The notes under the pieces were generated by a model. The model ran no database searches. It worked only from the letters and a program-made list of their open reading frames with translations, and was not told the DNA's origin. The position numbers and the translations under genes are program-made. This document shows positions 1 to 22,438 of a DNA stretch of 29,817 nucleotides, piece after piece (the stretch's first letter is position 1; every line of letters begins with the position of its first letter). Source of the stretch: Christensenella sp. UBA1252 (GTDB taxonomy: Bacteria; Bacillota; Clostridia; Christensenellales; CAG-1252); NCBI GenBank assembly GCA_002308575.1, contig DBVY01000060.1, positions 1 to 29,817 of the forward strand, in the 5' to 3' direction.

Positions 1-1482
1 GCGTCCGAATACGCTTACTCGGTAACCGGGCAAAACGAGTTGTTGTTCATCAAGGCAAGGGACGATATTGTACAAGAGGGGAAACACTCTTTTGACAATT
101 TCTTGATTGTCAAAGAGCCGCAGCAAGACGCCTCGCTTGCCTGCTTCCCGACGTACGACTTCGACACGATGCGCGTCCGTCCGGTGCGGGAGTTCGACGA
201 AATGGACTACCTCACCCATTTGCAGGAAACGCCCCAAGAGTACGTCGACCGCATCTTGCTGGAAGGCGGAAAAACGCTGGCGTGGACGCAACAACAACAA
301 ATGTCGCCCCTTAGCAAAAGCGACGTAGTTAAGATGATACAAATAGCGTCCCTCAAGTATCTGTTGGCGCACCCCGAACTCGATAAGCGAAGCGACGCGT
401 ACAAAGCATTGAAAGACGTCGTCGAAAAAGGGCCTACCGCGATAGAAGAACGGTTGCAGACAATGAAGGGCGACAAGAAGTTCGAGGATGAACTAAAAGG
501 GCTTAATATGGATGCGGTCGATTTTGATAATATGGAATCTATCGAACCGACTAAGACCTTCGACAAGTTTGCCAAATCGAGCCAAATGAAAAACTTCGGC
601 GAAGACGTTCGCCTGGCGGACAAGAACGCCAACAGAGATCTGAAAGCCTTGCAAACAGCACTCAACAGAGCAGAAAATGAACTTGATCGTGCCACGAGCG
701 ACTTTGCAATAGAGAAGGCTTCACGAGAGAGGACTGAGCTGAAAGAACAATTGGAAAAGGCGATCGAGAGCCGCAAAGAACAACTCATAAAGGATTTCCG
801 CGCGGGAAAGATCACAGAGGAATATTTGAACCGCCGCAACGAGCAGCTTGACAACGGCAAGTTCGACAACGTGCCCAAAATGTTCGAGGCGGACGAATTG
901 AAGTCTAAAAACGACTATCTGAAAGAGTATGCCAAACGATTCAACGACCCCGAGGACTTCAATGTCTTGAGCAAGGATGAGAAGAACGAGTTGTATCAGC
1001 GCTATGTGGATAATGCCAAGATCTCCAAAAATCAATTTATCGCCAAGAAGTATCTGGAGTCCGAGGGAATGAGACAAAAGGTCGAGCAAACAACCGTGGC
1101 GGAGCGTATAGCGGCGGAAGACGCAAGACTGGCGAGGATCGGAGAAGCGCCGATCAAGAGCAAAGCCGAGAGGGAGAAAGAAGCCGCCGAAAAAGAAAAG
1201 AAGGTCGAACAGCCCGAGGTCAAGCAAGAGGAAAAGGTCGAGGAAAAGAAGGTGGAAAACGTCGAAGTCAACCTCGACGAAGAAGAGCCCGAGGTCAAAC
1301 AGGAAGAGAAGGTCGAAGAAAAAGTCGAAGAAAAAGCAGAAGAAAAAGTCATCGGCGACGATGGCAGCGAAAGAATCAGCGTCGAGCTCGACGACGAGCG
1401 CGTGGAAATGAACGACGACATCCTTAACTTCGGCGGACAGGAAAAGAACCTCGAAAAGGGCAAAGGCCCGCTCGACATGTAA
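1..1482 (+). CDS. C-terminal part of a giant charged repeat protein (5' end outside window)
   Basis: The reading frame is open from base 1, so the gene begins upstream; the first in-frame start-like codon (TTG, base 40) has no ribosome binding site. The visible 493 residues are clearly homologous to the last 500 or so residues of the next gene (its bases 9373 onward). Shared blocks include FDNFLIVKEPQQDASL versus LDRYLMVKEPQEDASL, then FDEMDYL, RLADKNANR and FRAGKITEEYLNRRNEQLDN. The protein is rich in Lys and Glu, probably mostly helical with coiled-coil stretches, and shows no membrane segment. The tail is an acidic, Val/Lys/Glu-rich low-complexity segment (about bases 1195-1360) followed by the motif EMNDDILNF, which the neighbour also has near its C-terminus. 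By analogy the full protein may be equally large. I do not recognise the family, and no catalytic motif is visible. It is probably a structural or scaffold protein of the cytoplasm, which is inference. Confidence 0.85.
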   Translation, partial: ASEYAYSVTGQNELLFIKARDDIVQEGKHSFDNFLIVKEPQQDASLACFPTYDFDTMRVRPVREFDEMDYLTHLQETPQEYVDRILLEGGKTLAWTQQQQMSPLSKSDVVKMIQIASLKYLLAHPELDKRSDAYKALKDVVEKGPTAIEERLQTMKGDKKFEDELKGLNMDAVDFDNMESIEPTKTFDKFAKSSQMKNFGEDVRLADKNANRDLKALQTALNRAENELDRATSDFAIEKASRERTELKEQLEKAIESRKEQLIKDFRAGKITEEYLNRRNEQLDNGKFDNVPKMFEADELKSKNDYLKEYAKRFNDPEDFNVLSKDEKNELYQRYVDNAKISKNQFIAKKYLESEGMRQKVEQTTVAERIAAEDARLARIGEAPIKSKAEREKEAAEKEKKVEQPEVKQEEKVEEKKVENVEVNLDEEEPEVKQEEKVEEKVEEKAEEKVIGDDGSERISVELDDERVEMNDDILNFGGQEKNLEKGKGPLDM

Positions 1483-1573
1483 AAGTTTTCGTTCGTCAAA
1501 GAAATTTTTCTTTGAAAATAATCTCGGATGAAAGTTTTTTAGCGAAGAGAGAATAGAAGAACGAAGATAAAAA

Positions 1574-1612
1574 CGAGAAGTTGTCAGAAAAATGACGACT
1601 TCCGTTTTTTTT
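1574..1612 (+). terminator. Intrinsic terminator after the first giant gene
   Basis: The arms gaagttgtc (1577-1585) and gacgacttc (1594-1602) pair with one G-U wobble around an 8-base loop. The stem is extended by CG/CG at the base with one bulged A, and is followed by a run of eight T. It lies about 90 bases after the stop codon and separates the two giant genes into different transcripts. Confidence 0.8.
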
Positions 1613-1719
1613 CGGATTTTGCAAGCAAAAGTCCTTAAATTGCGTTGCCGATCGTTTGACGGATCTTTTTCGTTTCTTGTAAGAAAAAATCTAATAATCA
1701 CACGATCTTCGGGGCGATT

Positions 1720-1759
1720 TTGTTATAGATTTGTCATACTTCTATTTATATAATAAATA
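1720..1759 (+). promoter_or_regulatory. Probable promoter region of the giant gene
   Basis: A TATAAT lies at 1749-1754 inside an AT-rich run. The candidate -35 boxes TTGTTA (1720-1725) and TTGTCA (1731-1736) are at non-standard distances from it. TTGTTA at 17 bases from TATTTA (1743-1748) is the best-spaced pair. A promoter is expected here because a terminator precedes it, but the exact boxes cannot be decided by eye. Confidence 0.35.
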
Positions 1760-1827
1760 TACAAGCGTAAGTTCGAGGCAAAAAGAAATCAATATCCTCG
1801 CCGAAAAAGGGCGAAAAGGAGAACAGA

Positions 1828-4665
1828 ATGGGAAAACTTTTAAAACCGGGTGAGAAACTGACGAAACAGAATTTTGTCGAAATCTTCGATCGATATCGCG
1901 CAGAGGTAAAAGCGCCGATCCAAAAAGAAGGAAAGACGGAATACCAAATCGCGCAGGAAAAAGTGAAGAAGGAGGCGGCTGCCAAAGAGTACAACGCGCT
2001 CCTTGTCGACACCTTTGCGCTTTTGAGCAAAGAAAAGAAGCAGGAACTCTATTCCAAATTGGATCAGGCGACGCGTCAGACGAGCGAGAGTCGCGCGAAA
2101 GGCAACATTCGCGCCGAGCTGGAGGATAACGGAAAATATCCGCCGGCAGTTATCTTTGATAAAGTCAAAGAGCAATTAAACGCCGCCAAGAGTTACGATA
2201 AGAGCGTGGATATCCTTCGCCCGTTTTTGAGCAAGGAAGAATTGGCGCAACTGGAAAACTACCCGCATCCGGCTCGCCCGATGATGATGCTGGATAATAT
2301 CGGCGCCGATAATTTCAAGTACAAGTTTCTCGGCGCGATCGGCAGAGCGGAGACCGGCGACAAAGCGAGAGAGCTGGCGGCTCCTTTTATGCAAGATCAA
2401 CTCAAGGATCGCAAGTACAACGAGTACGAGATAAACGCATTTCGGATCGACGAGGTAAAGGACGATTTCTTCCGGATCGTCGCCGAATCACTCGACGAAA
2501 AGCAGATCGAAAAGATCCAAGCCGACGCGGAGAAGTATACAGATATCACCGAAAAGGATTGGGAAGAAGTCGGCAAGCATCCTCTTGCCGAGAAGACGAA
2601 CGCGATGATCGAAAAGATCAACGCCGACAAGACGCTTTCTCCCGAAGAAAAAGAGCAAGCCGTTCGGATGATCAATAAGATCGACAAGGACACGATCACG
2701 ACGGAAACCACCCATATCAATGCGCTCAACGATAATCGAAAGGAAATCGAAGAAGCGCTCTCCCGCGACGCTCGAAAGACGGGCGACGCGCTGCTCGGAG
2801 AGCAAGGGATCGACCCCCATCCGTTGAATCCGGACGAAACGCTCAGAGAGGGCAAGGCAGAGGATTACAACAAATTGAAATCGATGGAGATGCAATTCTC
2901 CGAAGACACCAAGAACAAGATGAAGGAGGTCTTCGAAAAGTTAGAAGCGTACGGCTACGCGCCCCAAGGCGTCCAGCAGGAAGAGGGCGAGAAACAGTAC
3001 GCTTTATCCGCCTACGGCGACACGATGAAGCTCTATCAGGACGCGCTCGAAAAGCAAGACGTTAAAAAGAGCGTCGAACTTGCGAAAGAGCTCGACAAGC
3101 ATAACAAGCAGATCCACGATCTCGTTGACACCGTCAATCAATTCTTCCCGTCGAACGAGGGCGATATGTATCCCGGCAACGTGGACGTTTTGCGAAACGA
3201 CGCCATGCCGCAAGATCTCAGGAAAGACGTCAAGGGCGTCAGCAAACTCAACGCGCTGTACGCCATTTACGGGTTTATCAAAGAAGCAGACGTAACCGTG
3301 GACGAATTTTTAGAGCGCCCGATGGAGCACATCCGTGAACCCTATTCGGAAGCGCTCACGAATAATCAGCCCATGGAGGCGATCAAAGGAGAAGCGGGCG
3401 CGGACGCGATTTATAATCTGACCCGTAAAGATCCGAATTTGAATAAGCAGTTGAGCGCTTTCGGAATGCCCCGTATTGCGGAGGGTCTTGCTACGCTTGA
3501 GACCGATCCTCAAATGAAGGCGAATAACTACGCGACTTCGTTTGCGTTCACCGATACTATCCACTTTCCTTATCAACATATAATTACCGACAAAAACGCG
3601 TTGGACGCCGCGAACAAGGAAACGCTCGACCGCTTCCTTCTCGTCGAAGATCCGCAGGTGGACGACAGGTTGCTTTCCGGCTCTTACTTCGATCCCGAAG
3701 CGGGTAAAAAAGTTCAAACCAAAGGATTCGACGAGGTGGAATATCTCGCGAACACCAAGGAAGACCCCAGCGAGTTCTATGCGAGACTCAAACAAAACGT
3801 CGTCGACTATATGGCGCTCGGCGACATGAGACCCGAAGGCGAAGAGGGGCTCAGCAACACCGATATGGTCCGCCTCGCGCAAAAAGCGGCGGCGAAGTTC
3901 TTGATCGTCAACGGTCCCGTTGCGTCTAAATATCAAAACCAAGAGGAACGCGAATACGAAGAGGAAGCCATTCGCGATTTGACCGCTTTCATCAAGAACG
4001 GCAAGCGTGAAGTGGGTAAATGGATCGACGAAGCGTATCTGCACCCCACGAATCCCAATCGACCGGTTTTGGAAGAGAAGGCGGAGCGTTTGATGAATTC
4101 GTTCGATTGCAACAACCCCTACGCGAACACGGTGAAAGATTTCATCGATCAGTACAACGAAGTAAAAAATCAAGAGGGCAACAACGAGCCCTATGCCCAA
4201 GAGGAAAGAGGGAAAAAGACGATCGAGGAGAAGAAGGCTTTCTTAACGCAATGTTTCCGCGACGGCGACGTGCCGCAGAGCTTCTATCAAGCGCGCATGA
4301 AACAGCTCGAGAAAGGCGATGTCAACGCCGAATTGCCTCCTTTCTTCGAGACGGACGCTTTGAGGGAAAAAGCGGATTATATCAAGGATACGTACGGCGA
4401 AGAAGCGCTCGGCGAACTTTCCGCAGCCGATCAGGACAGACTGTACGATCAATATATCTCGCGCGCAAAAGAAGAAAAGCGCATCTTCCTCGCCAAGAAC
4501 TATATGGCGGAGAACAAACTCGTTCAACAAGGTCAGTTCTTTACGATGGACGAGATGGAAAAACTGCATCCCACCGCCAATATCGAGGCGCACGAAGCGG
4601 AGAAAGAGCGCATCGCCGAGGAAGAAGCAGCCAAACTGGCGAAAAAAGAACACGAAAAACAGCTT
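1828..4665 (+). repeat. Protein-level repeat copy 1 of the giant gene
   Basis: First copy, residues about 1-945. It opens with a helical segment (start motif LKPGEKLTKQNFVEIFDRY), has the EKLEAYGY marker near residue 370, the GNVDVLRND block, and closes with a long Glu/Lys helix ending near KKEHEKQ. It is diverged from copies 2 and 3 at DNA level, so this is an old duplication. Boundaries are approximate. Confidence 0.7.
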
Positions 4666-7600
4666 CCGCACGAAGTCCGCATCAAGCTCGTTCGCGACGG
4701 GGAGAGGCTGAATAAGCATACATTCCCCGAGCAGATGAGCCGCTTTATCGAGAGCGTTCCGAACGACGTTGAGAAGAAGGAAGGCGAAACCGAATTGCAA
4801 ATGACGCACAGAAAGGAAGTCTTGCAGGAAGACAGATTGCGCAGGAGCGCTTTCGTCGGCAAGATCAATTCGATGCTGACGCCCGCGCAAAAAGAAAAAC
4901 TCGCCCGTTACGCGCCGATAAAAGGGCAAAAGGGAATGAATCGGATCATTTTCAGAAGAATGGCCGATATGATCAAGGAGTCCAGCCGGTATTACGAAAA
5001 GTCGAGCGAGGAGATGAGCATCGGCAACGGGCCCAGAAAGACGCAACTGGCGGAGGAACTCAAACAAATCAACGACACGGTCGGTCGCTTGGATCCCTCC
5101 AAAGTTTCGCTCGAAGAGGCGAAGCAGATCTGCTCCGCGTACTTGACGCCGGAGCAGCTGAACGATCCGAGATTTTCTCCCGCCAACGTCATGAACGCCA
5201 CCTTCTTCATCGAAAACCACGAGTACTGCGGCAAGGAGCTCGCGAATATGCTGACGCAGGAGCAACTCAACGAGCTCAATCAAACGGTTGAGAATTACGT
5301 CGCTCCGTGGAACAGGACGCACGAAGAAATGGGCGTCAAGGTCTTTACCGCGCAGACCGAGCAGGCAAAAGCGCAGATCGACCAAATGACGACGCTGAAC
5401 GGTCAGCCCCTCACCTTCGAACAAAAAGAAGCGATGAAAGCGGATCTCGACGCCGCGAACGATTTCTTGAGAGATCCCAAGGGCGAAGATCCCGAGTCCG
5501 CGTATTTCTCTTTGAATACGGACTACGAGCACGCGGTATTGCATGACGGACAAAAGAACGGCGCGACCAAGATGGCGGAGGAAGGATTGGATAAAGACGC
5601 CGTCGAACAGGTGGCCAATCCCGATACGGGGACGCTGGATAACGTCGTGGCGAAGGGCAAAGAAGCCGAACAAAAGAAATGGGAAGAGCAGGAATTCAAG
5701 TACTCGCCCGAGACCAAGAAGGCGATCAAGCACGTCTTCTCCAAGATGAAGGAGTACGGTTACGGCGGTCAAGGCATTATCGGTGAGGCGGACATTAAGG
5801 AGTACGGTCTCTCCAAGATCGCAAGGAAGATCGATGCCTACAGAGCGGCGACCCGAAGCGGCGACCCGATCAAAATGGCGAACGCTTCCAAAGAGATGAT
5901 GGAAGAAAAGGCGCGTCTCGACGAGATGCTCGGTTACGTTAAGGAAAATTTCCCGACCGATCGTCATCTCGACAATTTCGCCAAGGCGGGCAATATCGAC
6001 GTCGTGCGAAACGGAAACTTCCCGCCCGAGTATCGCTACGACGATGCGACGATTACGCATTTCAACTCGCTCTTTATCGTTATGAACTTTGCCGAAGCGA
6101 ACGGCATCGATCCCGACGAATTCTTAGAGCATCCCGCCAAGTATATGGGCGAATACTATTTGGATAAGGGTAACAAGAGCCTGAATAACGTTTTGAAAGA
6201 CAAGACGGGCGGCGAGGCGCTTTTTGAGATTGCGAAAAGGCAAGACTTTATTCCGAGAGCGGGTTACGGCAGCGCTCGCGCGATGGAAGCTTATTACTTC
6301 CTCGACAAAGATCCCGAAATCCGCGCGCATAACCACGGTTTGGGAGACTATATCGAGAAGCTCACCGTGCAAGCCGCGGACGCGGACATCAACCGCCGCG
6401 CCGCCGGGCGTAAACAAGGACACGTCGACAGGCTCCTCTTCGTGAGCGAACCGACCAATCCCGCGACGATCCTCGGGATCCCCCTCTATAATTCCAAGAC
6501 CCTTTCTTACGATCAGCCCGGAGAATTCAACGAGCTTGATTATTTGCAAAACAACGGCAAATCCGTCGGCGAGATGAAGGAGCTTTTGGATAAAAACATC
6601 AAAGAGTATCTCATTCGGGAGGCGACGGAGAGAACGGTGCACGGCGATAAGCTCACGGCGATCGACGACAACGGATTCTTGGAGATCGCGCAAAAGGCGG
6701 CAAGCAAGATCCTGATGGCGAAGCATATGGAAAAGGACGATCCCGCGTACGAGCAACTCAAAGGCCTTTTGACCAACGGGCAACAGTACGTAAACGATCT
6801 GCTCGCCGTTGAAAAGAACAAGGTCGCGCAAGAAGAAAAACTCTTGGAAAATGCGAAGATCGGTCTTGCCGACGTCAATAAGATGATCGAAGACAAGCGC
6901 GCCGCTGCGGAAAAAGCGGGGCAACGAATCGACGAGAACGATCCCGAAATGCAAATGCTTGCGGAGATCAAGGAGCAACGCACGCGGGAGATCGCCGAGC
7001 ATCAGGCGTATCTCGACGCAAACGGCGCGTATAAGAAAATTTCGCCTAATATGCAAGAAAAGTCGAACGAGCGGAAGTACGTTTCGACTTTGGAAACCTT
7101 GGAGCGTGCGATCAACGATTACGGCTCGCAAAAGCGTCCCGCCGGCGTGGACTTAAAGCCCGACGACGACTTTAACCGCTCGATCGTGAACGCGCAAAAA
7201 GAACTCGCCTCCATCGATTCGAGGATCGACGCGCGCCTGAACGAGATCGTAAACAGCGGCGCCGTGGGCACGATCAACAAGGACGATCAGATCCAAATTC
7301 TCGGTAAGATGAAAGAGGATAAGATCGCAGAGATCGCAGAAAGGAAAGCCGAATATATCGAAAAGCTCGATCGTGACGTGCAAGCGGGTCGCATCCCCGC
7401 CTCTTACAGGGACGTGCGCGTAAAGCAGGTCAACGATCCGAATTACAAATTCAACGACCTTCCCGCGCTTTTCCCGAAGCCCGACGTCATGAACAAGAAT
7501 CAATACATTGATTTCTTAAAGAACGATAAGAGGCAAGATCTGACCGGTTACGACGACGCCGATAAGGACGCTTTGTACGAAGTTTACGTCGCCGAACAAA

Positions 7601-10600
7601 ACGCGAAGAGAAACAAAGAAATCGAAGAATTCGCGATCAAGAAGAACGCCGAAGCGCTCGGATTTGCGTCTAACAAACCCGAAGCGCCCGCCGCAGAACC
7701 GGTTCCCGAAGCGCAAGCGGAAAGAGAGGAAGTGCAAAACGATTATTCGGGCAAATGGTTCGAGCCCGGAACCGAAGTGGATCATCAGATGCTGATCGAC
7801 AAGGTCAACGCGATCGAAGATCGTTTTGCGCAGCCAATCAACGACGAGAACTGGTTGAAAAACCGCGAAGAGTACGAAGCGAGAGGCTATGAAAGAGTGC
7901 GTTTGGGCGTCCTCTTCGAAGAAAGCTGGAAGACCCTTCCGACGGCGGGCAAAGAGAACGTTTTCGAGGCTTTGAACGACGAGACGAAGAGCGCGATCAA
8001 TAAAGAGGTCATCGATTCTTACGTCGCCAAACTCGGCGCGAAAGGAAAATCGGCGGAAGTTAAAGCCCTCGGGGATACGATCCGCGCCGGAAAAGATACT
8101 TTGACCCTTGCCGAAGTCGAGCAGATGACGGCGGGCGTCCTGACGGACGAAGAAAAGGCGGATCCCGCGCTGAAACCCTATAATCACGTCAAATTCGAGC
8201 ATATCTCGGAGAAGAATCCGCAAGCGTGGACTCCGCTTCTCCACTCCGTTCCGGAGAACGAATTGCAGTCCGTCGCTTTGAAAGCGGACGCGAAAAGAGC
8301 GCTCATGGAAAAGCCGCTTGACGAAGTCAAGGTCAAGAAGTACGGCGCCGAAGTCGATTCCTTGAAAGGCGTTCTCGACAATATGCAGTTCTATAACGGG
8401 CAGCCCTTGAACGAGCAGACCAGAGCGGAGATCAAGGGCAAACTCGACCGCGCGCAAGATATGCTTTCCGGTTTGACCCGGGAGTACGAAAGCGCCCTCG
8501 GCGATGTGCGTATCGGCAGGGAAGAGCGCGTTTACGGAATGAACCGCTCGCGTGAAGTCGTTGCCGATCGAAAACTCGGAGAAGAAGGCATCGAGATCAA
8601 ATCGGACAGTTTCGGCACGCGTAGACTGGCTGCCGTGGAGAAAGTGAATATCGAAGGGCAGGGTACCGTTGACGTCGTTAAACCCGAAGGCGCCGAACAA
8701 CTCGCGCATTTGAAAGAGAAGAAATTCGAGATCCGTCCCGAGACCAAACAGACGATCAAAGATATCTTTGCCAAATTCGACGAATACGGTTACGATCAAT
8801 CCATATTCGAGCCCGAAGAGGGAACGAAGGTTTACGCCTTGCATCGCTATAACGCCGCGGCAAAGGAATTCAAAAAGAACATTTCGAGCAACGATCCCGT
8901 TGAGAAACTCAAAGCGATCGAATCCGCCGATAAGATGAAGGTGGAGTACGACAGGGTCAAGGAGCTCGCCAAACAGGCGGGCGATCTCTTCGGCGTTGAA
9001 GAAGGCGGATTCTATCCCGGCAATTTGGACGTCGAGCGCGAAGACCTCTTCCCCCCGGAGTTCCGCAAGGATCTCGGCGGCATTTCCGCCTTGAACGGTT
9101 TGTACGTCATGTATCGCACGTTGAAGGAAAAGAACCTCGGCGTGGACGAGTTCTTGGATGATCCGAGGAAGTACGTCCATACCGAAGCCGAAAAGGTGAT
9201 CGAAAAATTAGATATCAATCATTCGATCAAAGGCAAGTCCGGCGTCGAAGCGATGATGGAGATCTGTAAGCCCTCTTACGTCATCGATCCGATCTCGGGA
9301 TTGGCGCTCGGCAGAACGATCGAGACCGTTGCCAAGATGGAAAAGGATCCCGCGCTTAGGGAGAACAATATCGCGACCGAATATGCGCACACGATGAGCG
9401 ACGATTACGCTTTGAACGCAACGGCGCAGCGCGAGGACGTGACCCGTACCGCGGCGGGCCATCTCGACCGCTATTTGATGGTCAAAGAGCCGCAAGAGGA
9501 CGCTTCTTTGTCCGGCGCCGTTACCATCGATTATAAGACGATGACCTTGATCCCCGCGCGAGAATTCGACGAGGTCGAATACCTCGTTAACGCAAACGAG
9601 GACCCGAAGGAGTACGCCGATCGCGTCCTCGGTCAGGGCTTGGATTTCCTCGTTAAAATGCACGAGGAAAAGGATCGCAAAGATTCGAAGGTCAGTTCCG
9701 ACGTCGAGCGCGAACACGCGGTAAGAGCGATGCAACTCGCGGCGATCAAATTCTTGGGCTCTCGCCCCGATATCAATAAAAAGAGCGAGGCGTATAAGAC
9801 CTTGAGCGGACTTGCCGAGAAGGGCCCCGCGTTCGTTAAGGAAAAACTGAACGAGAAAGTGGCAGCGGGCGTTTATGACGTCGACGTTTCGGAGATCGGA
9901 TTGGACGATATGAAGAACGTCGCGCCCAAAAAGAGCTTGGAAGAATTCAAGAAGTCCGAAAAGATGAAGACCTTCGGCGACGATGTTCGCTTGGCGGATA
10001 AGAACGCGAATCGCAATCTCAAAGATCTGCAAGCCGCGCTGACGAGAGCGCAAACCGCTCGTGATCGCGCGAACAACGACGTTGCGAGACAGCAAGCGGA
10101 TCAACAGGTTCGCGAGGCGCAAGCGCGCTTGAACGAAGCGGTCAACCAACGCAAAACGCAACTTATGGAGGACTTCCGCGCCGGACGCATCACCGAAGAA
10201 TATCTCAACAAGCGCAACGAACAGCTGGATAACGGGAAATTCAACGACAAGGTTCCCAAGATGTTTGAGGCGGACGAACTTTTGAGCAAGAACGACTACC
10301 TCAGCAAGAAGTATCCGAACGATTACCGCAACTTCAGCAAAGAGGAGAAGAACGAACTCTATCAACGCTACGTCGATAACGCGAAGCGTGAGAAAGATCA
10401 TTTTATCGGCAAGAAGTATCTGGAAGATCAAAAGATCATCACGAAGTCCCAGCCCAAGACCAAGGCGGAGCGGGAAGCGGCGGAGAACGTAAGACTTCAA
10501 AAGATCGAGGCGGTGATGCGGAAAGAGCAACCGAACGCGAACGCACGGCAAAACAATGCGCCCCAAATGCAGCAGGAAGCGCCGCAGGTGCAACAAAACG

Positions 10601-10896
10601 AGCCGCAAGCCCAAAACGAAGTCCAAAACCCGAAGCCTTCTTTGGAAGAAAGGATCCGCAATAACAACGGCCGCGTAGAGATCAACCTCGACGAAGAAGA
10701 CGATCCGATCGTCGAAGACGAAAAAGAGGACGAGAAGATCATCGAAAACAAGGCGGAAGTCAAAGAGGAAGAGAAACTCGAAGACGGTGTCGAACGCATG
10801 AATGTCGATCTCGACGAAGAAGAACCGGAAATGAATAACGACATTTTGAACTTCGCGGAACAAAAAGCCTTGGAAAAGGATTCGCTCAAAAAGTAA
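1828..10896 (+). CDS. Giant 3022-residue triple-repeat charged protein, function unknown
   Basis: The ATG start has a good AAGGAG six bases upstream (1816-1821). The protein is about 3022 residues, very rich in Lys, Glu, Asp and Ala, with almost no Cys and no signal peptide or membrane helix, so a cytoplasmic location is likely. It consists of three diverged copies of a module of about 1000 residues, roughly 1-945, 946-1970 and 1971-3022. Markers recurring in each copy are SEDTKNKMKEVFEKLEAYGY (358-377) and its equivalents from about 1292 and 2302; a block of the type GNxDVxR...FPPExR...LNxLY...DEFLxxP; and LDRFLLVEDP / VDRLLFVSEP / LDRYLMVKEP. Each copy ends with a helical, coiled-coil-prone part. 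The last 120 residues are Gln/Asn-rich, then strongly acidic, and close with EMNNDILNF shortly before the end. The preceding gene is a paralogue of the third copy. No enzyme motif is visible; a filament, scaffold or other large structural role is inference. Expression appears monocistronic, since terminators lie on both sides. Confidence 0.9.
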   Translation: MGKLLKPGEKLTKQNFVEIFDRYRAEVKAPIQKEGKTEYQIAQEKVKKEAAAKEYNALLVDTFALLSKEKKQELYSKLDQATRQTSESRAKGNIRAELEDNGKYPPAVIFDKVKEQLNAAKSYDKSVDILRPFLSKEELAQLENYPHPARPMMMLDNIGADNFKYKFLGAIGRAETGDKARELAAPFMQDQLKDRKYNEYEINAFRIDEVKDDFFRIVAESLDEKQIEKIQADAEKYTDITEKDWEEVGKHPLAEKTNAMIEKINADKTLSPEEKEQAVRMINKIDKDTITTETTHINALNDNRKEIEEALSRDARKTGDALLGEQGIDPHPLNPDETLREGKAEDYNKLKSMEMQFSEDTKNKMKEVFEKLEAYGYAPQGVQQEEGEKQYALSAYGDTMKLYQDALEKQDVKKSVELAKELDKHNKQIHDLVDTVNQFFPSNEGDMYPGNVDVLRNDAMPQDLRKDVKGVSKLNALYAIYGFIKEADVTVDEFLERPMEHIREPYSEALTNNQPMEAIKGEAGADAIYNLTRKDPNLNKQLSAFGMPRIAEGLATLETDPQMKANNYATSFAFTDTIHFPYQHIITDKNALDAANKETLDRFLLVEDPQVDDRLLSGSYFDPEAGKKVQTKGFDEVEYLANTKEDPSEFYARLKQNVVDYMALGDMRPEGEEGLSNTDMVRLAQKAAAKFLIVNGPVASKYQNQEEREYEEEAIRDLTAFIKNGKREVGKWIDEAYLHPTNPNRPVLEEKAERLMNSFDCNNPYANTVKDFIDQYNEVKNQEGNNEPYAQEERGKKTIEEKKAFLTQCFRDGDVPQSFYQARMKQLEKGDVNAELPPFFETDALREKADYIKDTYGEEALGELSAADQDRLYDQYISRAKEEKRIFLAKNYMAENKLVQQGQFFTMDEMEKLHPTANIEAHEAEKERIAEEEAAKLAKKEHEKQLPHEVRIKLVRDGERLNKHTFPEQMSRFIESVPNDVEKKEGETELQMTHRKEVLQEDRLRRSAFVGKINSMLTPAQKEKLARYAPIKGQKGMNRIIFRRMADMIKESSRYYEKSSEEMSIGNGPRKTQLAEELKQINDTVGRLDPSKVSLEEAKQICSAYLTPEQLNDPRFSPANVMNATFFIENHEYCGKELANMLTQEQLNELNQTVENYVAPWNRTHEEMGVKVFTAQTEQAKAQIDQMTTLNGQPLTFEQKEAMKADLDAANDFLRDPKGEDPESAYFSLNTDYEHAVLHDGQKNGATKMAEEGLDKDAVEQVANPDTGTLDNVVAKGKEAEQKKWEEQEFKYSPETKKAIKHVFSKMKEYGYGGQGIIGEADIKEYGLSKIARKIDAYRAATRSGDPIKMANASKEMMEEKARLDEMLGYVKENFPTDRHLDNFAKAGNIDVVRNGNFPPEYRYDDATITHFNSLFIVMNFAEANGIDPDEFLEHPAKYMGEYYLDKGNKSLNNVLKDKTGGEALFEIAKRQDFIPRAGYGSARAMEAYYFLDKDPEIRAHNHGLGDYIEKLTVQAADADINRRAAGRKQGHVDRLLFVSEPTNPATILGIPLYNSKTLSYDQPGEFNELDYLQNNGKSVGEMKELLDKNIKEYLIREATERTVHGDKLTAIDDNGFLEIAQKAASKILMAKHMEKDDPAYEQLKGLLTNGQQYVNDLLAVEKNKVAQEEKLLENAKIGLADVNKMIEDKRAAAEKAGQRIDENDPEMQMLAEIKEQRTREIAEHQAYLDANGAYKKISPNMQEKSNERKYVSTLETLERAINDYGSQKRPAGVDLKPDDDFNRSIVNAQKELASIDSRIDARLNEIVNSGAVGTINKDDQIQILGKMKEDKIAEIAERKAEYIEKLDRDVQAGRIPASYRDVRVKQVNDPNYKFNDLPALFPKPDVMNKNQYIDFLKNDKRQDLTGYDDADKDALYEVYVAEQNAKRNKEIEEFAIKKNAEALGFASNKPEAPAAEPVPEAQAEREEVQNDYSGKWFEPGTEVDHQMLIDKVNAIEDRFAQPINDENWLKNREEYEARGYERVRLGVLFEESWKTLPTAGKENVFEALNDETKSAINKEVIDSYVAKLGAKGKSAEVKALGDTIRAGKDTLTLAEVEQMTAGVLTDEEKADPALKPYNHVKFEHISEKNPQAWTPLLHSVPENELQSVALKADAKRALMEKPLDEVKVKKYGAEVDSLKGVLDNMQFYNGQPLNEQTRAEIKGKLDRAQDMLSGLTREYESALGDVRIGREERVYGMNRSREVVADRKLGEEGIEIKSDSFGTRRLAAVEKVNIEGQGTVDVVKPEGAEQLAHLKEKKFEIRPETKQTIKDIFAKFDEYGYDQSIFEPEEGTKVYALHRYNAAAKEFKKNISSNDPVEKLKAIESADKMKVEYDRVKELAKQAGDLFGVEEGGFYPGNLDVEREDLFPPEFRKDLGGISALNGLYVMYRTLKEKNLGVDEFLDDPRKYVHTEAEKVIEKLDINHSIKGKSGVEAMMEICKPSYVIDPISGLALGRTIETVAKMEKDPALRENNIATEYAHTMSDDYALNATAQREDVTRTAAGHLDRYLMVKEPQEDASLSGAVTIDYKTMTLIPAREFDEVEYLVNANEDPKEYADRVLGQGLDFLVKMHEEKDRKDSKVSSDVEREHAVRAMQLAAIKFLGSRPDINKKSEAYKTLSGLAEKGPAFVKEKLNEKVAAGVYDVDVSEIGLDDMKNVAPKKSLEEFKKSEKMKTFGDDVRLADKNANRNLKDLQAALTRAQTARDRANNDVARQQADQQVREAQARLNEAVNQRKTQLMEDFRAGRITEEYLNKRNEQLDNGKFNDKVPKMFEADELLSKNDYLSKKYPNDYRNFSKEEKNELYQRYVDNAKREKDHFIGKKYLEDQKIITKSQPKTKAEREAAENVRLQKIEAVMRKEQPNANARQNNAPQMQQEAPQVQQNEPQAQNEVQNPKPSLEERIRNNNGRVEINLDEEDDPIVEDEKEDEKIIENKAEVKEEEKLEDGVERMNVDLDEEEPEMNNDILNFAEQKALEKDSLKK
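4666..7737 (+). repeat. Protein-level repeat copy 2 of the giant gene
   Basis: Second copy, residues about 946-1970. It opens with IKLVRDGERLNKHTFPEQM, which parallels the opening of copy 1, and has the MKEYGYGG marker near 1307, the GNIDVVRNGNFPPEYR block and VDRLLFVSEP. It holds a longer coiled-coil insertion towards its end (from about residue 1650) than copy 1, which makes it about 70-80 residues longer. Confidence 0.7.
7738..10896 (+). repeat. Protein-level repeat copy 3 of the giant gene, closest to the upstream paralogue
   Basis: Third copy, residues about 1971-3022. It opens with SGKWFEPGTEVDHQMLIDKV and has the FDEYGYDQS marker, the GNLDVEREDLFPPEFR block and LDRYLMVKEPQEDASLSG. From base 9373 onward it aligns almost without gaps to bases 1-1482, so the upstream gene and this copy share a more recent ancestor than the three internal copies do. 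The copy carries the C-terminal acidic tail. Confidence 0.7.
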
Positions 10897-11049: not shown

Positions 11050-11499
11050 ATGGATATTCGAGCGATCAGAGCAACGGAAACATGGCAACAAGCGGGCGCG
11101 TATTACGTCCGTATTCAGGGAATGGCGCGGCAACACGGCATCTCGCTTCGCCGCGAATTTGACGAACATGACACGCCGCAAACGAAATATATCGTTTTGA
11201 CGGACGGTGATTTCCCCGTCGCGACTTGCCGCTTGTATCCGATCGACGATAAGGCGGCGATGATCGGCAGAGTCGTCGTGCTCCCCGAATACCGCGGGCA
11301 AGGTCTCGGATCGCGCGTTATGAAGGAAGCGGAAAACTGGCTTTCGGAACTCGGATTTGCCCGGGCGGTCGTGGAAAGCCGCGACGTGGCGGTCGGGTTT
11401 TATCAAAATCTCGGCTATGCGGTTACGGATACAAAGGTCATTCACGGCGACACATTCGATTGCGTGCGCATGGAAAAGGATCTGCCCAAAAACGCATAA
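11050..11499 (+). CDS. GNAT-family N-acetyltransferase
   Basis: This 149-residue protein fits a single GNAT domain, which transfers an acetyl group from acetyl-CoA to an amine. The acetyl-CoA binding motif A is clear: VVLPEYRGQGLGSRVMKEAE, with RGQGLG at residues 82-87. It follows the strand CRLYPID and precedes the C-terminal block VGFYQNLGYAV, typical of the fold. The general layout resembles the ElaA/YjcF-like branch, but the substrate cannot be read from sequence. I chose the ATG at 11050 because GAGAGGG sits just upstream; an in-frame TTG at 11038 would leave no room for a ribosome binding site between it and the promoter. The GH31 gene follows after 32 bases, so they are probably co-transcribed. 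No functional link to sugar metabolism is evident. Confidence 0.85.
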   Translation: MDIRAIRATETWQQAGAYYVRIQGMARQHGISLRREFDEHDTPQTKYIVLTDGDFPVATCRLYPIDDKAAMIGRVVVLPEYRGQGLGSRVMKEAENWLSELGFARAVVESRDVAVGFYQNLGYAVTDTKVIHGDTFDCVRMEKDLPKNA

Positions 11500-11531
11500 A
11501 TCGGAAACGCAACAAGACAAAGGAGAACGAA

Positions 11532-13856
11532 ATGAAAAAAACGCTGAAAATCCATCCGGACGCGTTATACGACTCGGAGTACGAAGAGGCTTTTCTCGAA
11601 ACGGACGAATTCAAATCGCCTGACCTGCAATTGAAAGGTGAGTATAAGCACGAAAAAGGCGTGATCGTCATAACGACGTCGGGGCGCGAGATCGTCCTCG
11701 AAAACTGTTTCGAAAACACCCTGCGACTGCGCATCACGAAGCCGGGCGAATGCCTCGGAAAGACGGTGACCGAGCGTTTGGGATTGATCCGAACGGATTT
11801 CAAAGCGTTTCCTTATTCCTACGAACTTAAAGACGGCGTCATCACCTTTTCGAATGCGCGGCTGACCCTCGTCTTCGATATGAACACGAACGAATTTTCC
11901 TTCAAAACCGCCGAAGGGAAGACGTTGATAAAGACCAAAAACGGCGGCGCAAGGTTCTCCGAAGCGCCCGCGGACTATTCGGGCATCAGGAGTTACACCG
12001 AATTCGAGCGCCTCGGCGGCGAACGTTATTCGGGTTTCGGCGCGCGTATTTACAAGGTTGACAGAACGGGCGAATCTGCGGATATCTTCGCGGAAAAGGG
12101 CGGTGCGAAGGTCGGCGATTACGGCGGCTTCCCGATGCCGTATTTTATCAGCTCGGCGGGGTACGGTCTGTTCTTCAATAATCCGTGGCCGCACGTCTAT
12201 TTCGATATGGCGAAGACGAATCCGAACGAATGGTTTTTCACAGCGCCCGGCGGCGATTACGACCTGTTCGTTTTTTGCGGAAACACGTCCGAGATCACAA
12301 AAAGTTTTGCGAAGATCGTCGGCACGAACCAATTTCCGAAGAAGTGGCTGATGGGGTATTGGTGTAGCAGTTTGAGCTTCGAAAGGGCGCAAGGCGCGAT
12401 CGACGATATGGGCAGGATGCGCCGCGAAGGGTATCCCTGCGAAGCGATCGTGATCGACGGCCCGTGGCGCGGCGGCGTCAACTTCATCCGCGACTACGCG
12501 AGCGGATGGGGGTATCCCTCGGACGATTATAATTGGCATCCCGATTTCGGTGACGGCGTCGGCATGATTAAAAAACTCGAAAAAGAGAATATCAAAACCG
12601 TCTTGCATATCAATTCCTGCGCGTTCAAACCCGCGACCGCCGTTCCCGCGATCGCGCAAGGACTTTTGCGCCAAGTAAAAACCGAAACCGTGCCCGACGT
12701 TGCGACCGAGCGCGGCATCGAATACTACAAAACCTTTTTGGTGCCGAGGATCAAGGACGGCGTTACGCAATGGTGGACGGATCACTCCGACCGCGTCAGC
12801 GGAGAGATCCTGCCGGGCATTCCGTCGAGGAACCTGTTCGGCCCTCTTTGGAATCGGGCGATCTCCGACATTATGGCGGAAAACGGCGTCAAAAACCATA
12901 TGTCGCTGTCCAGAGGCGGCGGGATCGGAAGCCAAAGATACGCGCTTCCGTGGGCGGGCGATACCCAGTTCGGAATTCACCGCTTTAAGGAAGATATTTG
13001 GTATATCATAAACGCGGGTATGGCGGGCTTTACGCTCTGCGGTTACGATCTCGGCGGCTTTATGCGCGGGAGCGTAACCGATCTTACGCCCGACGAAATG
13101 CAATTCGACGTCGACAACATCGCGCGCCGCGTTTGCCAAAGCATGATCTTCTGTCCGATGCCGAGAATGCATAACGGCGAGAATTCTTCGGCGAAATGGC
13201 CTTGGAATTGCCCCGAGGAAACGAGAGAACTTTATCGTGATTGTTTATCTTTCCGCTATCGGTTTATCCCGACCGTTTATTCCTACGCGATCCACGGCTC
13301 AAAGACGGGCGAGCCGATCATTCGCCCCTTGTTTTACGATCATATGGAGCAGGAGAAGCTTTACGAGATCGACGACGAATTTTATCTCGGAGAGCACCTC
13401 TTGGTAGCGCCCGTGACCGAAGCGGGCGCCTTGAAACGCGAGGTCTATTTGCCCGAGGGAACGTGGGTAAATCTTTGGACGAAACAGCGCTTCGACGGTG
13501 ATCAAACGATCGTTTGCGACGCGCCGAAATTTAAGAAGGAAGGACTTCCGATGTTCGTAAAAGTCGGCGGCGGCGTTGCCTATCAACCCGACTGCCAAAG
13601 CCTCTATGACCGCGTGCCCGAAGCGCTCCGCGTCGAGCTTTACGCCGATTTGTCCGCCTCTCTCGTCCTGAACGAAGGGGAGGGGATCACGAACGCGTTC
13701 TCCGCAAAAAAGGTCGGCGACGGTTTCGAAGTGATCGCCGAGAATAGCAGCGGCGTAGACCGCGCCTACACGATCGCCGTCTACGCGAACGGCAAAGAAT
13801 TCTCCGCGGCGTTTACGATCCGCGCAGGGGAAACGAAAACGGCAAAGGCGGAGTAA
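11532..13856 (+). CDS. Glycoside hydrolase family 31 (alpha-glucosidase / alpha-xylosidase type)
   Basis: This 774-residue enzyme starts at an ATG with AAGGAG correctly spaced. It lacks a signal peptide and should act on imported oligosaccharides in the cytoplasm. The N-terminal third is the beta-sandwich seen in GH31 enzymes. The (beta/alpha)8 barrel starts near FPKKWLMGYWCSS. Family landmarks are the strand EAIVIDGPW, the block GVTQWWTDHSDR with Asp417 as likely nucleophile, and SRGGGIGSQRYALPWAGD with Asp477 as likely acid/base. The C-terminal beta domains follow, with the usual LLVAPV and VYLPEGTWVNLWT motifs. The nucleophile context (WWTDHSD) differs from the common KTDFGE or DMNEP forms, so the exact specificity (glucoside, xyloside, galactoside or sulfoquinovoside) is open. 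It lies in an operon behind the acetyltransferase, ended by a strong terminator, and next to a GH38 mannosidase gene. Confidence 0.92.
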   Translation: MKKTLKIHPDALYDSEYEEAFLETDEFKSPDLQLKGEYKHEKGVIVITTSGREIVLENCFENTLRLRITKPGECLGKTVTERLGLIRTDFKAFPYSYELKDGVITFSNARLTLVFDMNTNEFSFKTAEGKTLIKTKNGGARFSEAPADYSGIRSYTEFERLGGERYSGFGARIYKVDRTGESADIFAEKGGAKVGDYGGFPMPYFISSAGYGLFFNNPWPHVYFDMAKTNPNEWFFTAPGGDYDLFVFCGNTSEITKSFAKIVGTNQFPKKWLMGYWCSSLSFERAQGAIDDMGRMRREGYPCEAIVIDGPWRGGVNFIRDYASGWGYPSDDYNWHPDFGDGVGMIKKLEKENIKTVLHINSCAFKPATAVPAIAQGLLRQVKTETVPDVATERGIEYYKTFLVPRIKDGVTQWWTDHSDRVSGEILPGIPSRNLFGPLWNRAISDIMAENGVKNHMSLSRGGGIGSQRYALPWAGDTQFGIHRFKEDIWYIINAGMAGFTLCGYDLGGFMRGSVTDLTPDEMQFDVDNIARRVCQSMIFCPMPRMHNGENSSAKWPWNCPEETRELYRDCLSFRYRFIPTVYSYAIHGSKTGEPIIRPLFYDHMEQEKLYEIDDEFYLGEHLLVAPVTEAGALKREVYLPEGTWVNLWTKQRFDGDQTIVCDAPKFKKEGLPMFVKVGGGVAYQPDCQSLYDRVPEALRVELYADLSASLVLNEGEGITNAFSAKKVGDGFEVIAENSSGVDRAYTIAVYANGKEFSAAFTIRAGETKTAKAE

Positions 13857-13879
13857 AAGGCTTCAGCTTTATCCAATCG

Positions 13880-13912
13880 CACGCGACCTCGTTTATGGGT
13901 CGCGTGTTTTTT
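13880..13912 (+). terminator. Intrinsic terminator after GH31
   Basis: The arms cacgcgacc (13880-13888) and ggtcgcgtg (13898-13906) form a perfect 9-base stem with a 9-base loop, followed by six T. It is 24 bases after the GH31 stop codon. Confidence 0.92.
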
Positions 13913-13933
13913 ATATCGCGCAACGCGTTTTAA

Positions 13934-13962
13934 TTGACACGATTTGCCGCGCAAGGTATACT
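13934..13962 (+). promoter_or_regulatory. Sigma-A promoter of the GH38 operon
   Basis: A consensus TTGACA (13934-13939) is 17 bases from TATACT (13957-13962). The expected transcription start is near 13969, exactly where the structured leader begins. Confidence 0.9.
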
Positions 13963-13968
13963 AATTAG

Positions 13969-14018
13969 CGATAAAAAGTTTGACATAGTCAAACGGCGAA
14001 ACGCCGCCTTTTTTATCG
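13969..14018 (+). promoter_or_regulatory. Structured 50-base leader (three-way junction) before GH38
   Basis: Three stems pack with almost no unpaired bases. The closing stem is cgataaaaag (13969-13978) with cttttttatcg (14008-14018), one bulged T. The second hairpin is tttgac-ata-gtcaaa (13979-13993), perfect. The third hairpin is cggcg-aaa-cgccg (13994-14006). The closing stem ends at the ribosome binding site CGGAGG (14017-14022), so it could mask it. The third hairpin plus the six T at 14009-14014 could instead act as an attenuator. In DNA, the second hairpin is also a perfect palindrome just after the transcription start and could be a repressor operator. It matches no riboswitch class that I recognise. 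The pairing is seen; the role is inference. Confidence 0.6.
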
Positions 14019-14029
14019 GAGGATTACAG

Positions 14030-17000
14030 ATGAAACCGGAAAACGCGCATTTTAAACCGCTCGATTATTACCGCGAAAACGAGTGCAAGACCCTCGAAGA
14101 CGTTTTGGATTTCGGCAGGTGTTTGGAAGACGCCGCATTCCCCGTTCTGACTCGCTTTTACGGCTGGGAAGGAAGCGAGGAAGAAGCGCTCCCCACGGTT
14201 GAAAAGATCAAAAAGTGCCCCGTTTTCGATCCGACCGCAAAGGGCGAGAACAACATCAAAACGGGTTGGATGGCGGCGGAACTTGCGCTTCCGTACATCG
14301 CGAAGTTTTTCGACCCGAAGCAATTCGGCAATTACGGTTTTACTTACTACACCGAACTGGATCTCGATATCTATGCGGACGATCACGCGGTCGCTCTGTA
14401 TTCCTATATGGGCGGGCAGTTCGACCTCGGCTGCGCGCCTGACGGCAAACCGCATTACGTCTTTTTACGGATCGACAGCCCGAACAAAAACCCGATCAAG
14501 GACGTCGTTTCCCGCTACTGTTTGAAAGGTTTGAAAGAGGCGAACGAGGCGATCGCGAACCTTGCGAGATCGCTTCGCGCGGGGTGCCATCTTTTGTCCA
14601 CGTCCAATCGCCGCGAAAACCTGTACGTGCAGGGCGACGTTCCGATCAACAAAGCCAAGATCACGGACGAGGAAAGGAAAGCGCTTTCGGCGTGCCTCGT
14701 CAAAACCGCGAATTTCGTGATTTCAGCCCTTCGCGACGACACGATCCTTACGAAGATCTCCGCCGCGCTTGCGATGCTGAAACCCGTTGCGGATTATTCC
14801 AAAAAGTTTACGATTTACTTTATGGGGCATTCCCATATTGACCTTGCTTGGAAGTGGAGATATCCCGAAACGATCGAGTGCATGAAGGGAACGTTTGAAA
14901 CTCAGCTCGGTTTGATGGAGCGCGAACCCACGTACGTCTATTGCGAAACGTCCGCGGTCTTGTGGCGGGATATGAAGGAAAAGTATCCCGAATTTTGGGA
15001 GAAGATCCGCGCCGCGGCAAACAGAGGACAGTTTGAGCCGCAGGGCGGAATGTGGTGCGAAACGGACGGGCAATGCGTCGGCGAGGAAAGCTGGTTTCGG
15101 CAGATCGAATTCGGGCAGAAAACCGCGCGGGAAATCTTCAATAAGCAAGCGACCTGCGCCGTCAATATCGACGCGTTCGGGTTCAACGCGGGGCTTCCGA
15201 AGATCTTGAAAAACGCGGGGCTCAACTATTTCGTGACCCAAAAACTCCGCTATAACGAATACAATCTTTTCCCGTATATCCATTTTTGGTGGGAAGGGGA
15301 CGACGGCAGCAAGATCTTGACCTTGCACGAATATCCCGGTCACTCCAACCATATCGAGTACGATGAACTCGCGAAGACCGTCCGCGTCCATCACATGACG
15401 GACGGGTTCTATCATATCCCCCTTCTTTGGGGCTACGGCAACCACGGCGGCGGTCCGCAACCCGTTATGATGGACAGGCTCGACGAGCTCAAAAAGCAAA
15501 CGGTTTTCCCGAACATCAAGTTCTGCGGTATGACCGAATGGTATAAAATTTTGACGAGCACCGAGGATCTTTCCACGTTGCCGACCGTCAAAGGCGAACT
15601 CTTCTTGGAAACGCATCAAAAGACCTTTACCGTGCAGGCGAAGACCAAAGAACTGAACCGCGCTTGCGAACGCGAACTCTTGAACGCGGAGAGCTTACAG
15701 GCGGCGACGGGGAATTATCGCGACCTGACGAAGGCTTGGGAAAAAGAGCTGTTCGGTCAATTCCACGACATCCTCGCAGGAACTTCGATGCTCAAAGTGT
15801 ATCTCGATATGTACGAAGAGTACGATCAAGCGTTTAGGGTCATTGCCGATTCGAACCGCGATGTAGCGGAAAAAGCGCTCGGCACGGGAAGCGAAACCTA
15901 CGTCTTCAATCCGCTTTCGGTGACGGCATCCGAACCCGTCGTGATCGACGAAGCGCCCGCAAACGACGCGGGCTATTTGGCGGACGAAAACGGCAAGAAA
16001 TACGCCTATCAAAGGACATTCGATAACAAAACCGCGGTATATCTCGATGGGCTCAAACCCTATTCGTTTACGAAGCTTTCGTTGGCGGAAGGCGCGCCCG
16101 CGAGCGCGATCTCCGTTTGCGGAACGGAAATCGATAACGGCGTGATCAAGGTGGTTTTCGACCCCGAAAAGGGCGCGATCAAATCCCTCGTTTTCGACGG
16201 AAAGGAATTCAGCGGCGAGCAGATCGGCAATTTCAAGGTGTTGGAAGACACGAGAAGCCGCGATTACGATTCTTGGAACTTCGGCTTTACGGGCAAGGAC
16301 TGGGATATGAAATGCTTCGACTTCGAAGTGGTCGAGCAAGGCCCGATCCGCGTCGTCGTGCGCGCGAAATACTCGTTTGGTATTTGGACGGAAAAGAAGC
16401 CCTATTTCGGAACCTATCTGTGGCATACGCCCGCGGTCGATTACCCGACGAGCTTTTTGACGCAGGACTTTATCTTTTACGCGAACGATCCGATGATCCG
16501 TTCGGTGCTTCACGCTGATTGGTGGGAGAATGGCAAGGACTTAAAACTCTCGGCGGAAACGAACGTTAAGAACCCGCGCGCATTCTATAAAGTTCCTTTC
16601 GGGAAACTCGAGCGCCCCGTGAAACGAGAAACTTCTTACGAAAAAGCGAGATTCGAAGTTCCCGCGATCACTTACGGCGATCTTGTGGGAGAGGACGGCT
16701 ATTCGTTTGCGCTTTTGAACCGTTCCAAGCACGGCTACGACGCTTTGGACAGCAGAATTCGTTTGACGCTGTTGACTTCGCCGACCGGCGCGGACGTGGC
16801 GAAAGTGCCCGACGCAACCGCGGATAGAGGCAAGCACACGATCGAGGTCGCGTTCTTGCCGCATAAAAACGATTTCGATCTCGACCGCGCCGCGATGCGT
16901 TTCGAGAGAGGCGTTATGGTCTTAAAGGGAAGCGACGCGCCGAACGTGGCGCTTGGAAAATCGCTTTTGGAAACTTCGGACGACGCGCAAACGATCACGA

Positions 17001-19150: not shown

Positions 19151-19178
19151 AATCCACCTCTTTTTGAAATTCATACCT

Positions 19179-19207
19179 ATTATACGCCGATCGGAAGAAG
19201 ATTTCAA
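19179..19207 (-). promoter_or_regulatory. Sigma-A promoter of the minus-strand lipoprotein gene
   Basis: On the minus strand, TTGAAA (19207-19202) is 17 bases from a consensus TATAAT (19184-19179). The start codon is about 29 bases further, with a good ribosome binding site between. Confidence 0.8.
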
Positions 19208-19230
19208 GCGGGAACGACTTTTTTGAATTC

Positions 19231-19259
19231 TTGTATTTAAGGAAAATGTATGCTATAAT
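19231..19259 (+). promoter_or_regulatory. Extended -10 sigma-A promoter of the XRE cassette
   Basis: TTGTAT (19231-19236), a 17-base spacer and TGcTATAAT (TG at 19251, TATAAT at 19254-19259) form an extended -10 promoter. The start would be near 19266, directly before the palindrome at 19270-19295 and about 110 bases before the first gene. Confidence 0.75.
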
Positions 19260-19269
19260 ATTTCCAAAT

Positions 19270-19295
19270 GCTTAACACCATTATACTTGTTAAGC
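19270..19295 (+). promoter_or_regulatory. Palindromic putative operator of the XRE cassette
   Basis: The perfect 8-base arms gcttaaca (19270-19277) and tgttaagc (19288-19295) are separated by 10 bases. The site sits just downstream of the predicted transcription start, where a bound HTH repressor would block transcription. The XRE proteins encoded by the cassette are the obvious candidates to bind it. No T-run follows, so it is not a terminator. Confidence 0.5.
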
Positions 19296-22435: not shown

Positions 22436-22438
22436 CGA

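Follow-up and report, generated by a model that had tools for sequence, protein, structure and literature searches.

The window analysed here, that is, the whole stretch of 29,817 nucleotides, corresponds to bases 1–29817 of contig 49 (50,650 bases) in a genome assembly of 1.47 Mb and 61 contigs, which is 71% complete. It begins with the 3′ part of one giant gene, which is followed on the same strand by a promoter box and a second, complete giant gene, and the features of this part are as follows.

1..1482, + strand: upstream giant gene, 3′ part, 493 aa, comprising part of a third module and the C-terminal tail (by alignment; the start is cut off by the contig start)
1354..1479, + strand: C-terminal tail of the upstream giant, residues 452–493 (tail profile, E 1.2e-19; the sequence belonged to the training set of the profile)
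1719..1754, + strand: promoter box TTTGTTATAGATTTGTCA-12 nt-TATAAT, with a direct repeat of 11-bp period before the −10 element (0 mismatches; 73 nt before the ATG)
1828..10896, + strand: complete giant gene, 3022 aa (open reading frame with ATG start and no internal stop)
1828..4857, + strand: module 1, residues 1–1010 (module versus module searches)
2854..4038, + strand: mid domain, copy 1, with EAYGY, GNVDVLR, and DRFLLVEDP (motifs and homologue profile)
4075..4566, + strand: signature domain, copy 1 (homologue profile)
4858..7827, + strand: module 2, residues 1011–2000 (module versus module searches)
5659..6867, + strand: mid domain, copy 2 (motifs and homologue profile)
7102..7716, + strand: signature domain, copy 2 (homologue profile)
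7828..10893, + strand: module 3, residues 2001–3022 (module searches and AlphaFold2 model)
8689..9912, + strand: mid domain, copy 3 (motifs and homologue profile)
9934..10488, + strand: signature domain, copy 3, a long helical hairpin followed by PKMFEAD (homologue profile)
10777..10893, + strand: C-terminal tail of the complete giant, residues 2984–3022, conserved and predicted to be disordered (tail profile, AlphaFold2)

For the 3022-residue protein, the original prediction had proposed three diverged modules of about 1000 residues. Indeed, phmmer searches with a single module recovered the other two copies: module 3 as the query matched residues 213–926 (183 bits) and 1076–1705 (163 bits) of the complete giant, and module 1 as the query matched residues 1096–1717 (118 bits) and 2154–2644 (155 bits). 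Profiles built from homologues delineated in each module a mid domain of ~410 residues (residues 343–737, 1278–1680, and 2288–2695) and a signature domain of ~190 residues (residues 750–913, 1759–1963, and 2703–2887), with a more variable stretch ahead. The three recurring marker motifs that had been noticed earlier were each found once per module (residues 373/1308/2318, 450/1388/2398, and 601/1534/2547), all inside the mid domain, and a signature-domain match is present also in short relatives of 419–425 aa. The upstream gene, said to match the third module, does so: it aligns with residues 2516–3017 of the complete giant at 43.8% identity (E 1e-118).

The complete giant is highly charged and acidic (K+R 15.1%, D+E 19.2%, net charge −124). 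Neither a membrane helix nor a signal peptide was visible in it, the maximal 19-residue mean hydropathy being 0.91, as compared with 2.8–3.4 for the VirB6, VirB4, and surface proteins used as controls. No family of Pfam, NCBIfam, or PHROG matched it above the curated cut-off or at E 1e-3, sub-threshold hits such as DAHP_snth_FXD (17.1 bits against a cut-off of 27) being taken as chance, and the only PDB sequences hit were two designed repeat proteins, whose matches (E 0.0029 and 1) spanned 42 residues. The AlphaFold2 model of module 3 (mean pLDDT 81, pTM 0.67) is mostly helical to about residue 900 and disordered from module residue 899 on; P0040, which is 97% identical to the 545-aa protein of genome G018, was modelled by AlphaFold2 with a pLDDT of 84 and a pTM of 0.80. 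Foldseek searches of these two models against PDB gave no match at E ≤0.001 (best, 0.1 and 0.22), and the VIA rows of the fold search mostly covered one helical hairpin. Neither catalytic domains nor known effector motifs were found in the giants, and no Pfam or NCBIfam family passed the cut-off for enzymatic or LPD-type domains, as found in polyvalent and ICE cargo proteins. With no known-family match in Pfam, NCBIfam, PHROGs, PDB sequences, or PDB folds, and with no signal peptide or membrane helix, the view that these are giant, tandem, repeat-built, cytoplasmic-looking proteins of an unknown family was borne out.

Downstream of the complete giant, genes for GH31 and GH38 glycoside hydrolases are located on the same strand (11460–17080). 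An AT-rich stretch at 19000–22500 (GC about 36–41% versus 52–55% around it) encodes two HTH_3 proteins (19770–21236 and 21229–22272) and may be a recent insertion. The gene run at 23881–28958, judged by gene order and sequence starts, equals that at about 66461–71505 of contig C38 in G002, a genome of the same genus, the common genes encoding a 251-aa protein, a VWA lipoprotein, a fumarase-type lyase, and a malic enzyme. About 7–13 kb upstream of this common run, G002 carries a set of short relative, regulator, and kinase genes, and the window has the giants and hydrolases there.

A full-length search, in which 7985 candidates were scored, gave 32 proteins including the query, none of which has a precomputed Pfam domain. 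The giant forms among these matches are two-module proteins of 1934–2341 aa, three-module proteins of 2877–3141 aa, and a fusion protein, P0033; single-module giants of 1048 and 1142 aa were obtained from genome context, and a 5062-aa protein of G336 (contig C8) contains four recognisable pairs of mid and signature domains. The 5062-aa open reading frame (G336:C8:10037–25225; L053, L054) adjoins a gene for a hybrid histidine kinase whose N-terminus is TetR-like. Order-wide, matches at E 1e-6 were found in 5 of 396 genomes, namely, the window's own, G002, G018, G241, and G318, the match in G002 being the short relative only. Among the 13 same-genus genomes, including the window's own, giants occur only in the latter and the short relative in one more. 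The suggestion of a genus-specific structure is thus contradicted, since giants are present in 1 of 13 genomes of the genus, yet also in other families of the order; the family occurs in scattered genomes of the order, in forms with one, two, three, or at least four modules. A scan of genome contigs gave no relative with one module as the query and five loci with the alignment as the query, all in MAGs titled ‘Clostridia’ or ‘Clostridiales’, two of which (one isolate) are titled roe deer rumen. A prophage or plasmid origin of the giants was rejected, as no match was found among phage records, plasmid records, and viral contigs.

In relatives, the giants are encoded next to genes of a type IV secretion system (T4SS). 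The cluster of G241 (contig C73) consists, in this order, of genes for a histidine kinase, a short relative (423 aa), a response regulator, a secreted Ig-like protein, VirD4, a 4057-aa surface protein, a pilin, a lipoprotein, VirB6, VirB4, and two giants, with 111 nt between virB4 and the first giant and 102 nt in the next gap. The same order is found in G318 (contig C1), with a single 1142-aa giant 60 nt 3′ of virB4, and the locus L021 reads giant, kinase, short relative, regulator, Ig-like protein, VirD4, and surface protein. In all three, the short relative with the signature domain sits between the kinase and the regulator; further giants are located on separate contigs (G318:C11 and G241:C70). 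The 4057-aa surface protein (L023:2378–14551), encoded between virD4 and the pilin gene, has a signal-like start and a C-terminal membrane helix, and the corresponding open reading frame measures 2450–4057 aa across the full-length clusters. VirD4 matched NF045973 (cut-off 250) with 298.8 bits in G241, 298.0 in G318, and 297.3 in L021, and PF02534 with 170.8 bits; VirB6 matched NF045848 with 146.2 and 148.2 bits (cut-off 90), and the pilin of G318:C1 matched PF18895 (T4SS_pilin) with 40.5 (cut-off 26.6). VirB4 scored over the NF045975 cut-off of 590 in G227 (601.1 bits) and G018 (597.9 bits) and under it in G241 (551.7 bits) and G318 (563.0 bits), and NF045849 (cut-off 40) gave 53.7 for G318:C5 and 39.2, just under, for G318:C1. 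By their VirB4, VirD4, VirB6-like protein, and pilin, the clusters of the relatives are T4SSs of the Mbov/CD1115 conjugation type.

Mainly helical proteins of 350–560 aa with E1/E2 domains are encoded directly 3′ of virB4 in G018:C21, G227:C23, and G318:C5, at gaps of 18, 9, and 41 nt, respectively. At E 1e-5, they were found in 3 of 396 genomes, all three with the VirB4 type of the giants. The fusion P0033 joins two E1 copies with a giant module; the giant modules and the E1/E2 proteins showed no relation in a profile comparison (E 0.09), so that their link consists of this fusion and their common place, and not of proven homology. Separately, a 987-aa protein without a Pfam match (G343:C3; L077:11464–14427) is encoded directly 3′ of a more distant virB4, a position equal to that of the giants in G241 and G318.

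VirB4 was detected at E 1e-50 in 66 of 396 genomes, and matches spanning its full length at ≥55% identity were found in G018, G227, G241, G277, G318, and G336, partial C-terminal matches of 56–63% in several further genomes being left uncounted. Giants or E1/E2 proteins are present in five of these six genomes, the exception being G277. This VirB4 group occurs in 5 of the 8 family-bearing genomes, which include G127 and G002, versus 1 of the 388 others (Fisher 4e-9, with a threshold chosen post hoc, descent uncorrected, and G127 taken as one of the 396); when any VirB4 is counted, the enrichment is weak (p 0.004). The window's genome gave no VirB4 at E 1e-50, no VirD4 at 1e-5, no short relative except for matches inside the giants, and only a weak match (32%) for the regulator; the missing T4SS may be explained by the incompleteness of the assembly, whose contig is cut inside the upstream giant. 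Incompleteness poorly explains the case of G002 (97% complete), in which the kinase, the regulator, the short relative, and three promoter boxes are present and no VirB4, VirD4, or giant was found at the same thresholds.

The sequence of the box was first read in the spaces before the giants of the window and of G241, and none of 100 shuffles of the window contained a match. Its repeats (TTTGTAATA) are 11 bp apart, with 6–9 of 9 positions alike in 11 sites. An 11-bp repeat spacing is the operator geometry of the OmpR/PhoB type; the regulator of the clusters contains a receiver domain and a weak match to Trans_reg_C (E 0.0027–0.024), and presumably binds the box. With the pattern TTTGTWATARATTTGTMA-N12-TAYAAT and up to 3 mismatches, 12 sites were found in 4 of 10 genomes and none with the reversed control. 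Ten of the 12 sites precede family genes or pilin operons: five giants (the window with 0 mismatches, three in G241, and G318:C11), three short relatives with the regulator gene next each time (G241, G318, and G002), and two pilin-VirB6-VirB4 operons (G241 and G318). The sites of the window, G241, and G318 are not independent, since the pattern was built from them; those before the G002 short relative and in G127 are independent. Boxes in G002, a genome without a detected T4SS, also lie before a GGDEF gene (C16:45467) and a YjbR-domain open reading frame (C19:30289), and the regulon may include c-di-GMP signalling. No site was found in G008, G014, G018, G227, G277, and G336, among which T4SS genes are present without the box in G018, G227, G277, and G336.

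A search of 297 genomes revealed an exact site in G127, which precedes a short relative that is cut off by the contig end after 71 residues and has a kinase gene ahead. At ≤1 mismatch, eight sites were found, of which six precede family or T4SS genes (the window, G127, and four in G241); the other two stand before the YjbR-domain open reading frame of G002 and before a 3631-aa open reading frame of G251 with a signal-like start. The latter box (L107, G251:C1:696087; 1 mismatch) lies about 195 nt before the reading frame, whose product gave no blastp match (E 0.01) to the reference proteins of the clusters. At ≤3 mismatches, 56 sites in 44 genomes versus 30 for the reversed control indicate a high background, for which reason the box was rejected as a stand-alone detector at this setting.

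Neither of the complete clusters, G241:C73 and G318:C1, whose open reading frames of at least 80 aa were all assigned, showed a relaxase, and no integrase was found in them and the scanned flanking reading frames, the scan leaving out a 95-aa reading frame 3′ of the giants of G241 and some small ones. The flanks are housekeeping genes, that is, those for a melibiase, MscS, an LRR protein, ArsB/CitMHS, MntP, and a glutamate-type dehydrogenase in G241, and ABC-transporter genes and two small reading frames, one MsrA-like by eye, in G318. A genome-wide search for PF03432, the one relaxase family used, was positive in 1 of 8 genomes, on another G241 contig beside a second VirD4. Among four comparators with related T4SS parts, MobL is encoded directly before virD4 in G280:C1, which has an integrase besides, and in G241:C75, and no relaxase was found among the scanned neighbours (part of the reading frames) in G343:C3 and G277:C15; a missing neighbour relaxase is therefore not peculiar to the clusters of the giants. 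In these clusters, the Ig-like protein gene stands immediately 5′ of virD4, and the idea that the relaxase before virD4 was simply replaced was only half supported, as two of the four comparators have MobL and two showed no relaxase among the scanned neighbours. As far as tested, the clusters with giants are not a conjugative element.

Identity was further analyzed per 150-column step along the alignment A1 for nine pairs of proteins. P0018 and P0020 are 49–64% identical in the first seven steps and 84–99% in the last seven, and P0020 and P0022 are 79–94% and later 58–87% identical, a pattern of mosaic modules. At the internal ends of modules, the tail profile gave nothing better than E 0.01, the terminal matches arising by construction. 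The hypothesis of one tail for all candidate substrates was borne out in part: the giants share one conserved tail, and those of the 500-aa proteins are acidic, of several kinds, and loosely like it. The tail of the giants is a candidate translocation signal.

Collectively, the giants are connected with the T4SS by linkage, by the box they have in common with it, and by co-occurrence, and the gene in the window is connected with it as well through its exact box; the window's own organism would, on this reading, have such a system. We assign the giants to the gene set of a chromosomal T4SS of the Mbov_0395-0397/CD1115 type that lacks a relaxase and for which they most likely serve as protein substrates, a reading to which we give about an even chance and according to which they would leave the cell. 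The main evidence against it is that no T4SS was detected in the window's genome, for which incompleteness may account, and that G002 has the regulators and boxes with neither T4SS nor giants, for which incompleteness accounts poorly. Substrates are favored over machine parts by the variable number and length of the giants, their mosaics, the copies on other contigs, and the dissimilar proteins at the same place. A non-exported cytoplasmic machine part (scaffold, gate, or sorting platform), whose repeats would frame VirB4 and VirD4, is rather unlikely, although the giants adjoin virB4 and share the promoter box, the kinase and regulator genes flank the short relative that carries the signature domain (G241, G318, and L021), the model is mostly helical, and no catalytic domain was found. 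Such a part should be more constant, whereas both copy and module numbers vary widely, and E1/E2 proteins without detectable similarity take the same place in clusters with a related VirB4.

The giants might also belong to a conjugative element with a relaxase elsewhere or of a new type, being delivered with DNA and protecting it or disabling the recipient, a role proposed for the polyvalent proteins that phages and conjugative elements encode. The machine parts do come from conjugation families, related parts in the order stand beside MobL and once with an integrase, and the relaxase-free neighbourhoods of G343 and G277 suggest that a relaxase need not adjoin the machine. However, with neither relaxase nor integrase in two complete clusters, with PF03432 (the single family searched genome-wide) missing in 7 of 8 genomes, and with no match in plasmid or phage records or viral contigs, we regard this as improbable. 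Slighter still is the chance that the giants form a cytoplasmic scaffold, filament, or inclusion, as originally suggested, with an incidental T4SS neighbourhood. Their charged, helical, repeat-built nature without a signal peptide would suit such a role, as would the absence of a detected T4SS in the window's genome and the boxes and regulators of G002 without a T4SS; against it stand the linkage in G241, G318, and L021, the box at separate loci, and the enrichment with one VirB4 group, all of which point to a T4SS gene set. The original interpretation is partly supported: the unknown family of giant tandem repeat proteins is borne out, and neither the genus-specific structure nor the scaffold, filament, or inclusion received support.

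For the giants as T4SS substrates, the following course can be proposed from the gene contents. The histidine kinase and the response regulator would sense a signal, upon which the regulator would bind the direct repeat (TTTGTAATA, 11-bp period), standing in for a −35 element, and switch on the operon of the short relative (425 aa) and the regulator, the pilin-lipoprotein-VirB6-VirB4 operon, and the giants, whether linked or elsewhere. The huge surface protein would make contact, VirD4 would collect the helical giants via their disordered C-terminal tail, and the T4SS would export or inject them, the cargo having possibly been diversified by module duplication and recombination. More tentatively, and at somewhat less than an even chance, a conjugation-derived T4SS of monoderm bacteria would here be a dedicated translocator that injects helical repeat proteins of ~100 to >500 kDa and is controlled by a two-component regulon having a promoter box of its own.

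A T4SS lacking the usual gene for DNA transfer may have turned into a protein exporter; the association is observed, and export is inferred. If true, the giants would constitute a new effector class of very large size, and uncultured Clostridia would possess a T4SS dedicated to protein export, a kind of system nearly unknown in their group. The locus also offers a first functional lead for proteins of about 1000 to 5000 residues without a match in the searched libraries. A 2025 review finds it surprising that nearly all known functions of Gram-positive T4SSs are DNA transfer, and dedicated effector translocators in Gram-positive bacteria are described there as a long-standing question (PMC12857230). 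For testing this question, the present locus supplies concrete genes and two complete clusters, together with a predicted operator and a tail that is a candidate signal. Among the titles and abstract starts that searches of open-licence PMC papers brought up, none described the family or linked it with a T4SS.

Among known systems, Mycoplasma-type ICEs (pilin-like Mbov_0395, VirB6-like Mbov_0396, and VirB4 Mbov_0397) and the CD1115-type VirD4 supply the NCBIfam families to which the VirB4, VirB6, pilin, and VirD4 encoded in the clusters belong by their matches, partly over and partly just under the cut-offs. The clusters with giants differ from those ICEs by a two-component system of their own and by giant helical proteins behind virB4, and the two complete ones showed neither relaxase nor integrase. 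The ICEs of Mycoplasma hominis are described as carrying a species-specific module for proteins with TAL-effector features (PMC6813540), and by this description they are alike in that the ICE of a minimal bacterium encodes TAL-effector-like repeat proteins, and different in that these proteins lie on a mobile ICE. The T4SS of Saccharibacteria, with six pilins, is needed for life on another cell (PMC12857230); it resembles the system proposed here in being a T4SS of monoderm bacteria whose role goes beyond plain conjugation and differs in its six pilins and in that giant helical proteins do not appear in its description there. For the 89K T4SS of Streptococcus suis, protein export by a Gram-positive T4SS has been reported, the substrate being a subtilisin-like protease (PMC12857230). 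Judged by that description, the system of the giants would likewise be a monoderm T4SS exporting protein, whereas 89K is a pathogenicity-island system with a protease, and not giant repeat proteins, as its substrate.
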